Shown here piece by piece: positions 3,974 through 17,906 of a DNA stretch of 23,482 nt. The number at the start of each line of letters is the position of its first letter. Positions within the stretch are counted from its first letter, which is position 1. The translations under genes and the position numbers were made by a program. The stretch covers positions 1 to 23,482 of the IMG/VR virus record IMGVR_UViG_3300035158_000267; one strand, 5' to 3'. The notes beneath the pieces are model-generated. The model saw nothing but the letters and a program-made list of their open reading frames with translations, made no database searches and had not been told where the DNA came from. The stretch is from a virus.

Positions 3974-4911
3974 TTGAAGCCCTCTGGTCAGAACATTACC
4001 GCCCCGCAACTGTACAGGACTGCATCCTACCCAGCAGTCTATCCAAGTCATTTGGAGAGATGATCAGTCTGGGCTCTTTGCCCAACATGATCTTTTCTGG
4101 ATCGTCGGGTCTGGGAAAAACCACAGTAGCTCGGGCTCTTTGCAATGAACTCGGTTTGGATTATGTTCTGATCAATGGCTCCGAAGATTCCGGAATTGAT
4201 GTCCTGCGAACCAAGATTCGTCAGTTTGCATCAACTCAATCATTGACTGGAAATGGTCAGCACAAGGTTGTGATTCTGGACGAGGCTGATTATCTCAACG
4301 CCTCGTCCACACAACCTGCTCTTCGTGCCTTTATTGAGGAATTCAGCGATGTCTGTCGATTCATCTTGACTTGCAACCTCAAGAATCGGATCATTCCAGC
4401 TCTTCAGTCTCGTTGTACTTGCATTGATTTTGGGGTTGATCGTAAGACTCTGGCCAAACTTGCGGCCAAATTCCACAAGCGTCTCAAGAGGATTCTTGAC
4501 GATAATGGAGTCAGCTATGATGACGGTGTTCTGGCCGAGGTTATTATGAGATTTGCTCCTGACTGGAGACGAGTCCTCAACGAGTGTCAGAGGCATTCCT
4601 ATGATGGTGAACTTTCATCCTTGATTTTGTCTTCACTCTCTGACGAGAACATATCCACCTTGATCAATTACCTCAAGACCAAGAATTTCAAGCAGATGAG
4701 ATCATGGGTCGCTGTCAATTCAGATCTTGATTCATCTGCAATCTTTCGCAAGATATACGACTCACTCAATCAAGTTTGCGAATCACCTTCGATTCCTCAA
4801 GCAGTTTTGATCTTGGCCGATTATTCATATAAGGATTCATTTGTGGCCGACAAGGAAATCAATATGGTCGCTTGTATGACCGAGCTGATGAGAGATTTGA
4901 AATGGAAGTAA
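3970..4911 (+). CDS. 44: clamp loader ATPase subunit (gp44-like)
   Basis: This 313-residue AAA+ protein is the expected size for T4 gp44 (319). It has Walker A GSSGLGKT at 44-51, Walker B VILDEAD at 101-107, sensor-1 TCN at 134-136 and the SRC arginine-finger motif at 147-149. Four gp44 subunits with one gp62 open the gp45 ring and place it on primed DNA using ATP. The gene overlaps the preceding small gene by 4 bases and gene 62 by 10 bases, consistent with coupled translation of the complex. Confidence 0.95.
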   Translation: MIEALWSEHYRPATVQDCILPSSLSKSFGEMISLGSLPNMIFSGSSGLGKTTVARALCNELGLDYVLINGSEDSGIDVLRTKIRQFASTQSLTGNGQHKVVILDEADYLNASSTQPALRAFIEEFSDVCRFILTCNLKNRIIPALQSRCTCIDFGVDRKTLAKLAAKFHKRLKRILDDNGVSYDDGVLAEVIMRFAPDWRRVLNECQRHSYDGELSSLILSSLSDENISTLINYLKTKNFKQMRSWVAVNSDLDSSAIFRKIYDSLNQVCESPSIPQAVLILADYSYKDSFVADKEINMVACMTELMRDLKWK

Positions 4912-5303
4912 AGTCGCCATTTGATTATGTCAAATCAATCAATGGCTCTTCCAAGGAGAGCATAATGATTGATGATGAAGATCGTAAGCAATACATCCCC
5001 TTTGTGATCAATCGTACACTTTCATATCATCAGGACACAATCTTGTTTGTCAACGAGATGAACATCAATCATACTGCTCCAGTTGATATGCAATATGATT
5101 TTCTTCGTCTCTTGATTCGTCCGGCCAAAAGGTTTGCCAAATGGGAAAAGCCGATACCTGATTCAGATGACATTGAACTGTTGATGAAAGAGTATTCGTG
5201 CAACCGAACCAAGGCACAAGAAGCTCTTTCAATCCTGACCAAGGGGGAAATTGAACGCATTCGTGATAGACAATATTGTGGAGGTGTTGAAAAGTCTAAA
5301 TAG
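4902..5303 (+). CDS. 62: clamp loader small subunit (gp62-like)
   Basis: This 133-residue protein sits in the gene 62 position, overlapping the end of gene 44 by 10 bases. The stretch RPAKRFAKWEKP followed by an LxxxY..N..KA..xLSILTKGE region matches the T4 gp62 pattern PRGKRYGKWAKL ... SILTKNGK. It is shorter than T4 gp62 (187 residues), as in several other T4-like phages. It has no ATPase motifs and serves as the fifth, structural subunit of the loader. An in-frame start at 4872 would overlap gene 44 more deeply; the ATG at 4902 (MEVKSPFDYV) fits better. Confidence 0.88.
   Translation: MEVKSPFDYVKSINGSSKESIMIDDEDRKQYIPFVINRTLSYHQDTILFVNEMNINHTAPVDMQYDFLRLLIRPAKRFAKWEKPIPDSDDIELLMKEYSCNRTKAQEALSILTKGEIERIRDRQYCGGVEKSK
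5296..5302 (+). promoter_or_regulatory. possible T4-type late promoter box CTAAATA
   Basis: CTAAATA overlaps the last codons of gene 62, 42 bases before regA. The T4 late promoter box is TATAAATA and related phages use CTAAATA-like variants. The box lies inside a short inverted repeat AGTCTA-AA-TAGACT, so it may serve another purpose. Confidence 0.35.
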
Positions 5304-16110: not shown

Positions 16111-16186
16111 ACGGGTGTAGCTCAATTGGTAGAGCACCAAGCCGATAACTTGGAGGTCAATGGTTCGACTCCATTTTCGGGGACCA
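16111..16186 (+). tRNA. tRNA-Ile (GAT) with unpaired acceptor stem
   Basis: The D arm, anticodon arm (CCAAG/CTTGG, loop CCGATAA), T arm (AATGG/CCATT) and CCA are normal. The acceptor strands ACGGGTG and TTCGGGG do not pair. It may be a recombinant of two tRNA genes or a non-functional copy. Confidence 0.7.
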
Positions 16187-16193
16187 ATTTGAA

Positions 16194-16304
16194 GTACACT
16201 GGCCATAGAGAAATGGGAGTAGCTGGGTTCAATTCCCATGCGTTCGGTGGCCGAAAGTAAAAGGTAGCTCCGCTCGACGGTTCAACTCCGTCCGGCCAGT
16301 GTGC
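16194..16304 (+). ncRNA. candidate structured RNA 2, with tRNA-like T arm
   Basis: An 11-bp stem (16194-16204 with 16294-16304, one T-G pair, core CACTGGCC/GGCCAGTG) closes the element. Directly inside the 3' arm is a T-arm-like hairpin GACGG-TTCAACT-CCGTC (16276-16292). The middle 70 bases hold TTCGG-TGG-CCGAA and a TGGG-TTCAATT-CCCA hairpin but do not give a normal cloverleaf, and GTG replaces CCA. It lies between tRNA-Ile and tRNA-Asn. It may be a tRNA-like RNA or a heavily altered long-variable-arm tRNA. Confidence 0.5.
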
Positions 16305-16318
16305 TTTGTAAATTTTGA

Positions 16319-16905: not shown

Positions 16906-17532
16906 ATGTCATTAAAATCTGAAACAGCACAACTCCACATCGAGGCAGAAAATCATCCCTTTAATCAACGCATGATGAAAGGCGAACTTTCAGACTCTGA
17001 TTACCTTTCTTGGTTGCAATGTCAAAAAGAGCTTTTTGACGCAATTGAAAAGAAAGTTGATCAGTTTGCGGTTATGCCGCACATGGCGCTTTTAGATGCA
17101 CCTATCTTTGGCTTTGATCTTGTTGGCATTAATCGACCCAACAAGTTCACTGCGGCATTCTTAGATTTGTCCGGAAACGCAAATCAGTCCTACTTTAATC
17201 CCGACGGTGATTTTTTTGGTGAACCGCACCGCATTCCAAATTGGGGCGATATCTTTTCGCCCTCGTTTGTTTGTATTATTCCAGATATGAACAAAATTAA
17301 ATCATTGCTTAGCTATGCGCTTGGCGTGTTTTTATCATACTTTCAAATTTTGGCTCATTATAAACCAGTCAAAGATTCAAGTGACATTGTTGATCGCCAA
17401 AATCAATATTGTGAAGTACAATCACAAAATCCTAAGACTTTCGGTGTTTTAAAGTCAAAGATTGGTGAAAACGATGCTCGGTGGTTTATGCAGAACATCT
17501 TGTTTCCTTTAGCAACACCTTTGCGAGAGTAG
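16906..17532 (+). CDS. heme-oxygenase-like protein
   Basis: This 208-residue protein resembles heme oxygenases at its N-terminus: ETAQLHIEAENHPFNQRMMKGELS matches the family pattern T-x-x-x-H-x-x-A-E-x-x-x-F-x-x-x-x-x-x-G, with His 11 at the place of the heme ligand. Heme oxygenases open heme to biliverdin, iron and CO with electrons from ferredoxin or another donor. The glycine-rich distal helix of classical enzymes is not obvious (LSYALGVFLSYFQILAHY lies in its place), so it may be a family member with another substrate. Cyanophages carry heme oxygenase for bilin synthesis. The gene interrupts the tRNA array, its codons are more A/T-rich than those of the replication genes, and its last 10 bases are also the first bases of a tRNA half, suggesting later insertion. 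Confidence 0.6.
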   Translation: MSLKSETAQLHIEAENHPFNQRMMKGELSDSDYLSWLQCQKELFDAIEKKVDQFAVMPHMALLDAPIFGFDLVGINRPNKFTAAFLDLSGNANQSYFNPDGDFFGEPHRIPNWGDIFSPSFVCIIPDMNKIKSLLSYALGVFLSYFQILAHYKPVKDSSDIVDRQNQYCEVQSQNPKTFGVLKSKIGENDARWFMQNILFPLATPLRE

Positions 17533-17569
17533 TTCAGTGGATAGAACAACTGATTAAATTTGAGTTTTT

Positions 17570-17577
17570 TATAAATA
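17570..17577 (+). promoter_or_regulatory. T4-type late promoter box TATAAATA
   Basis: This is an exact match to the T4 late promoter box, followed by GG. It lies in the insert of the interrupted tRNA, 8 bases before tRNA-Arg, so it would drive tRNA-Arg and the zinc-finger gene. Confidence 0.6.
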
Positions 17578-17584
17578 GGATAAA

Positions 17585-17659
17585 GCGCCTATAATGTAAT
17601 GGAAAGCATCAGGGTCTTCTAAACCCTTCGTCTAGGTTCGAATCCTAGTAGGCGCACCA
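17585..17659 (+). tRNA. tRNA-Arg (TCT), nested in another tRNA gene
   Basis: The acceptor GCGCCTA pairs fully with TAGGCGC. The anticodon stem is AGGGT/ACCCT with loop CTTCTAA, and CCA is encoded. It lies wholly inside the insert of the interrupted tRNA. Confidence 0.94.
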
Positions 17660-17676
17660 CCCTATTATAAAAATAT

Positions 17677-17844
17677 ATGTCTACTTGTAAACATTGCAAA
17701 AAGGAATTTGAAAAAAAAGATATTGCTAATCATTCTAGATGGTGCGATTTAAATCCCAAAAGAATTCAATATGCTGAAAATTTAGCTAAAGCTAGATCTG
17801 CCAAATCAAAATATTTTGATATTAGACTCTTTAGAAAAGTGTAA
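17677..17844 (+). CDS. small zinc-finger protein
   Basis: The 55-residue product is MSTCKHCKKEFEKKDI followed by a His and a Cys (NHSRWC) and a basic tail, giving a CxxC...HxxxC metal site near residues 4, 7, 19 and 23. The motif followed by LNPKR is like small zinc fingers found in many phage proteins, either alone or attached to homing endonucleases, where they bind DNA. The codons are far more A/T-rich than those of the neighbouring genes, and the gene lies in the insert of the interrupted tRNA, so both probably arrived together. Its role could be binding of DNA or RNA at this locus; that is inference. Confidence 0.7.
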   Translation: MSTCKHCKKEFEKKDIANHSRWCDLNPKRIQYAENLAKARSAKSKYFDIRLFRKV

Positions 17845-17906
17845 AACATTCAACGTTTAAACAGTCGGTCGTCAGTTCGAGTCTCACCTCTCGCGCCAGA
17901 ATTTAG

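Follow-up and report, generated by a model that had tools for sequence, protein, structure and literature searches.

A tRNA-Arg gene interrupted by a probable defective homing-endonuclease element that carries its own tRNA-Arg(UCU)

Positions 17523-17898 of the window, the whole 23,482-nucleotide stretch of viral DNA analysed here (IMG/VR record IMGVR_UViG_3300035158_000267), contain one tRNA body in two halves, 17523-17555 and 17861-17898, around a 305-base insert. What lies here is very probably a mobile homing-endonuclease element, of a kind present in T4-like and other phages, in defective form; the element would destroy a tRNA-Arg(UCU) gene and supply its replacement. Relatives show the full element inserted after U33-C35 of a tRNA-Arg gene and, as read from their sequences, the intact form is composed of a late promoter, a tRNA-Arg(UCU) and an endonuclease of C2HC-NUMOD3-PD(D/E)XK type. 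What persists in the window copy is the carried tRNA, beside a decayed endonuclease. The identity of the mobile element came from these relatives and is not visible from the window alone; the initial annotation, made from the window, had favoured a split tRNA and named as its alternative an insertion that broke the tRNA. The alternative was right, but what was inserted would be a mobile element that has an endonuclease and carries a tRNA-Arg(UCU). The features of the locus are:

17523-17555, plus strand: outer tRNA-Arg, 5' part (from sequence and pair counts)
17556-17860, plus strand: inserted element, probable defective copy, 305 bases (boundaries from relatives and empty sites)
17570-17577, plus strand: T4-type late promoter box TATAAATA (from sequence)
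17585-17659, plus strand: carried tRNA-Arg(UCU), complete with CCA (ARAGORN; Rfam tRNA, 62 bits)
17677-17844, plus strand: 55-codon ORF, N-terminal C2HC zinc-finger remnant of a homing endonuclease (alignment to full-length relatives)
17825-17860, plus strand: endonuclease C-terminal codons DSLEKCKTFNV and stop TAA (comparison with the C-termini of relatives)
17861-17898, plus strand: outer tRNA-Arg, 3' part (from sequence and pair counts)

The 5' part of the outer tRNA provides the acceptor strand GCGAGAG, the D arm GTTC-AGTGGATA-GAAC, ACTGA at tRNA positions 27-31, and U32 and U33, while the 3' part provides ACAGT at 39-43, the variable loop CGGTC, the T arm, the acceptor strand CTCTCGC, G73 and CCA. 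The tRNA body first read from the two ends is borne out by an acceptor paired at 7/7 positions (17523-17529 with 17888-17894), a D stem of 4/4, G73 at 17895 and CCA at 17896-17898, and falls short in the T stem, which pairs at 4/5 positions with one C-C mismatch. The anticodon stem has 4 bp only, plus an A-A opposition (31:39). A20 in the D loop and G73 are established tRNA-Arg features, and by its D loop AGTGGATA with A20, together with G73, the outer body reads as Arg-type. With introns allowed, ARAGORN joins the outer halves into a single tRNA whose intron would be 300 bases long and whose anticodon is UUU. The replacement of the middle of the anticodon loop by about 300 bases, the perfect T4 late promoter box and the complete nested tRNA-Arg(TCT) were all confirmed, and the box would be expected to drive the endonuclease as well as the carried tRNA. 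In other phages the 5' half of the window tRNA has no exact match; the gene upstream of the locus, tried as a handle on the corresponding empty site, has no relatives, and for this locus itself an empty site was not found.

The short zinc-finger gene described initially exists as an ORF but is not a complete gene. Its residues 1-46 align with the start of longer proteins (about 195 residues) from other viral contigs, with 72-76% identity in the closest six loci, and the C-terminal codons DSLEKCKTFNV, whose counterpart in locus L001 is DSIEKCKQYSV, lie out of frame with respect to this N-terminal remnant. Since the C-terminal codons persist in another frame, the window gene is read as having lost roughly 135 codons from its interior, the nuclease domain among them, and as having undergone a frame shift. 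An independent zinc-finger gene was ruled out on the same grounds, namely the alignment to the N-terminus of a longer endonuclease and the C-terminus left in the other frame.

Full-length relatives, about 195 residues long, combine a C2HC finger, a NUMOD3 motif (scoring above its cut-off in L001 and L007) and a PD-(D/E)XK-like C-terminal domain, in which E110, D145 and D156-P-K158 are invariant or near-invariant. PHROG matches of these proteins are to endonucleases and homing endonucleases, and no Pfam match to a GIY-YIG domain was found in the family. The AlphaFold model has a mean pLDDT of 87, and its best Foldseek matches are PD-(D/E)XK nucleases (Bax1, RecE, Vsr), which are weak matches, the best with an E-value of 5.7e-3 and none below 1e-3. 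The alignment search returned relatives at 79 viral loci; the non-redundant set used below has 58 loci, including the window and two loci found by pattern. No relative was found in bacterial and archaeal genomes, and annotated phages hold distant relatives only, the fullest with 42% identity.

At the level of sequence, comparison across loci shows which gene the element targets, where it enters, that target bases are lost, that the element is mobile and that its cargo is constant. The left flank ends inside the anticodon loop, either after U33 or after CTTC (C32-C35), and the right flank begins in either the variable loop or the T stem. Leaving the window aside, the other nine two-half copies place the endonuclease stop codon at -4 to +3 nt relative to the T stem. 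At the 3' junctions of L015 to L018 the stop codon TAG falls on the CTAGG of the variable region in the recipient tRNA, and the target tRNA may therefore supply the stop codon. Empty sites, in which a glycine-zipper gene is followed by an intact tRNA-Arg(TCT), occur in L140, L168, L142, L176, L132, L133, L134, L157 and others, and the same glycine-zipper gene stands directly upstream of the element in the occupied alleles L016, L019 and L023. Compared with L140 and L168, the element in L016 replaces TTCTAAGCA, a sequence that takes in the anticodon and the greater part of the 3' anticodon strand; across empty and occupied sites about 9-11 target bases, comprising the anticodon and the 3' anticodon-stem strand, are deleted on insertion.

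Both outer halves are kept in ten copies, in clearly different tRNA bodies, with the acceptor paired 7/7 and the D stem 4/4 in 10/10 and a T stem of 4-5/5. The acceptors of the outer halves in L016 do not match, and in many elements the outer halves are eroded or missing while the endonuclease stays open. The elements of L015 and L016 are 87% identical over 759 bp, and this identity stops within the D arm and the T arm/acceptor of the outer tRNA, beyond which the flanks are unrelated. Three marks of a homing element are present in the family: a nuclease domain (in relatives), occupied and empty alleles of one site, and near-identical elements in unrelated flanks.

A plausible route of spread can be proposed from these junctions. 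In co-infecting phages the endonuclease would cut tRNA-Arg(UCU) genes close to the anticodon, and repair from an element-bearing genome would copy the element, with the conserved D-arm and T-arm sequences of tRNAs serving as homology arms. Crossovers in the D and T arms would leave both outer acceptor strands recipient-derived, and the outer acceptors would match because both strands come from the recipient, with no selection on the outer tRNA needed. The carried tRNA would then replace the destroyed one and may itself escape cutting through its differing sequence.

A role for the carried tRNA can be weighed against passive baggage, the reading in which the tRNA-Arg stays beside the endonuclease by descent and has no rescue role. 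A UCU tRNA is found beside the endonuclease in 56/58 non-redundant loci: directly upstream in 47, upstream in a special form in three (L053, L066, L077), and overlapping or abutting the 3' end of the endonuclease in six, with no adjacent tRNA-Arg in the remaining two (L056 and L074). A late-type box precedes the carried tRNA in 37/47 loci. Such a neighbour could come by linkage within the endonuclease family, but the carried tRNAs have many unrelated bodies, some of them rewired, and yet present one anticodon, UCU (loop CTTCTA[A/C] or TTTCTA[A/C]), in every relative with a tRNA there. The carried isoacceptor is also that of the destroyed target. Of the 15 element contigs (up to 230 kb in size) that have an Arg(TCT) pattern match, 13 have no such match besides the carried tRNA. 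The carried tRNA is moreover retained beside broken endonucleases, in the window, L022 and L004. Passive baggage can draw on the weak difference between the likeness of the outer tRNA to its own carried tRNA (0.539) and to those of others (0.573), for which the permutation value is 0.024 among sequences that are related to one another; overall it is improbable. The exact D-loop motif GGATAGAGCA, tried as a marker separating target from carried tRNAs, was suggestive by eye and was set aside as confounded by descent.

It is tempting to extend the homing element with a replacement tRNA to a natural home-and-rescue drive, in which the endonuclease would specifically destroy tRNA-Arg(UCU) genes at the anticodon and spread by carrying a resistant tRNA-Arg(UCU) of altered sequence and, in some lineages, altered topology. 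This extension is a tentative possibility, somewhat short of an even chance, and the resistance of the carried tRNA to cutting is only hinted at, by the lower likeness of each outer tRNA to its own carried tRNA than to those of other elements.

The retained outer halves invite two other readings. They might be kept because their acceptor, T arm and D arm together form a tRNA-like cap that terminates the endonuclease mRNA and shields it, in a manner loosely comparable to the tRNA-like domain of tmRNA; the position of the stop codon beside the T stem in full-length copies and the intact outer acceptor, D and T arms would suit such a cap. Many elements, however, lack the outer 3' part or have an eroded 5' part while the endonuclease is still open, and the acceptor match is explained by recent insertion and recipient-derived acceptors, which leaves the cap highly unlikely.

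The split-tRNA reading of the initial annotation fares slightly worse still and deserves very little credence. It holds that processing of the nested tRNA-Arg frees the outer halves, which pair through a flank helix and function either joined or in trans. The intact acceptor and D stem of all ten two-half copies are compatible with it, an intron model is possible with ARAGORN, and T4-like phages encode RNA repair enzymes, as established for T4. The flanks were also said to continue the anticodon stem, and an extended helix of -14.0 kcal/mol does exist in the window, a value reached by 0.27% of random window 30-mers; the helix is partly leftover anticodon stem, and its insert-only part, without the four old anticodon-stem pairs, has -9.5, reached by 0.8%. 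The helix is not conserved in relatives, where a lack of conserved pairing had been named in advance as counting against the split tRNA: element ends from the same copy pair no better than ends swapped between different copies (permutation p=0.73). The full 3' anticodon-stem strand is missing in 9/10 two-half copies, the anticodon bases are deleted according to the empty sites, and the outer halves are eroded at many loci. The window is the best case, with the 3' strand kept, yet no excision of the insert restores UCU, ARAGORN gives UUU in an Arg-type body, and the T stem contains the C-C mismatch. The split tRNA is unsupported because of the lost 3' strands, the unconserved flank helix and the frequent erosion of the outer halves, and for the family it is already largely refuted. 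A group I intron was ruled out, as no Rfam intron match was found in the window.

Among known systems, T4 SegB is a free-standing homing endonuclease that PMC2988022 lists between tRNA-Arg and tRNA-Ile, with a late promoter predicted and the tRNA intergenic region as the site of cleavage; according to Brok-Volchanskaya et al. 2008, as cited in PMC2988022, it spreads the tRNA region in mixed infection. The present element resembles it as a phage endonuclease adjoining a tRNA-Arg and provided with a late promoter. SegB, however, is a GIY-YIG enzyme and intergenic, whereas the present family combines a zinc finger, NUMOD3 and PD(D/E)XK, lies inside a tRNA anticodon and carries its own tRNA-Arg; the element is therefore not a SegB. 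In tRNA anticodon loops, group I introns that encode homing endonucleases likewise place an endonuclease gene in the loop, but here there is no ribozyme by Rfam intron match, the window insert has no space to hold one, and the target bases are deleted. Free-standing organelle homing genes carry a replacement part of the invaded gene, as in atp6 of Allomyces, and the proposed supply of a function that the invader destroys is of this type, with the difference that a whole tRNA of other sequence is placed before the endonuclease. Synthetic home-and-rescue gene drives join a nuclease that destroys a useful gene to a resistant copy of it; the present element would share this logic, with resistance putative, and differs in being natural, in phages and directed at a tRNA. 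Archaeal split, nested or permuted tRNA genes share the interruption of the anticodon loop and the presence of another tRNA inside, whereas in most of the present copies a joined product is impossible and the halves decay. A search of the open literature, covering sources outside subscription journals, found no paper on an endonuclease that sits in a tRNA anticodon and brings a replacement tRNA with it.

Phage tRNA clusters are rich in homing endonucleases, and to our knowledge there is little information on what such phage enzymes cut and at what cost to the phage. In the present family the sequences reveal the target (the tRNA-Arg(UCU) anticodon), the empty allele, the occupied allele and the likely replacement, and a nuclease-plus-rescue element is therefore directly testable. 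The phage would lose one tRNA-Arg copy and receive a replacement, and the element offers an explanation of fragmentary tRNA genes in phage genomes that does not involve split tRNAs.

Two further RNA features lie upstream in the window. A tRNA-Ile(GAT)-like gene at 16118-16175, whose acceptor stem does not pair and of which Rfam covers positions 8-63 only, has probably decayed. The RNA of 16193-16306 folds strongly (z -3.7): a 12-bp stem closes it, and one hairpin, GACGG-TTCAACT-CCGTC, resembles a T arm, but there is no CCA; no relative of it was found in the phage collection.

Separately from the window, a non-canonical tRNA-Arg(UCU), about 84 bases long and lacking a D hairpin, is seen in several carried tRNAs and in most of 27 pattern-found viral contigs. 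In it, the segment before the anticodon arm pairs with the segment after it, so that the anticodon arm is enclosed by a D-like stem, with the TGGA D-loop motif 3' of that arm. These rewired genes were missed by ARAGORN and have no dedicated Rfam family. They occur as follows:

L098, L184, L187, L191, L201, L023, L019, L034, L088 and others: rewired tRNA-Arg(UCU)
L208, 1195-1277: rewired tRNA-Arg(UCU) in a cultured phage, Salicola phage SCTP-2, no feature annotated there
L209, 1182-1267: rewired tRNA-Arg(UCU) in a cultured phage, Nitrincola phage 1M3-16, no feature annotated there

Among 17 distinct sequences the proposed pairs of the D-like stem are kept in 90% of cells, and 36 double-change cells are seen, against 8.0 in shuffles (0/500 reach the observed number) and at most 4 in slid controls; covariation is strong backing for a D-like stem that wraps the anticodon arm. 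A covariance model of the rewired tRNA-Arg(UCU) gives 28 matches at 61-106 bits, with other tRNAs mostly below 35 bits and one Tyr-type relative at 43.5. A relative of the rewired tRNAs with the anticodon GTA (Tyr) is located at L072:1107-1192.

In L053 (4807-4929) and L194 (about 5140-5260) two different tRNA genes share a conserved anticodon-loop insertion of about 50 bases with the core GGGTATGRAAGCCCAGTGAAGTGCGAATCTTCTA, the removal of which in L053 leaves CTTCTAA. The insertion is possibly a small intron, with no Rfam intron match. Just upstream of the element copy on the viral contig of L042, a tmRNA gene of permuted type is found at 4521-4843 (Rfam, 102 bits). A second non-canonical tRNA type consists of a TAGCCGAG-like segment, an anticodon arm and CGTAACTGGA, followed by the T arm, with no clear D stem, and is present at:

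L042:4897, L046:4783 and L009:2082: second non-canonical type
L210 (Maribacter phage Panino) and L211 (Microbacterium phage Pumpernickel): second non-canonical type
L073:8957: second non-canonical type, with the anticodon ACG
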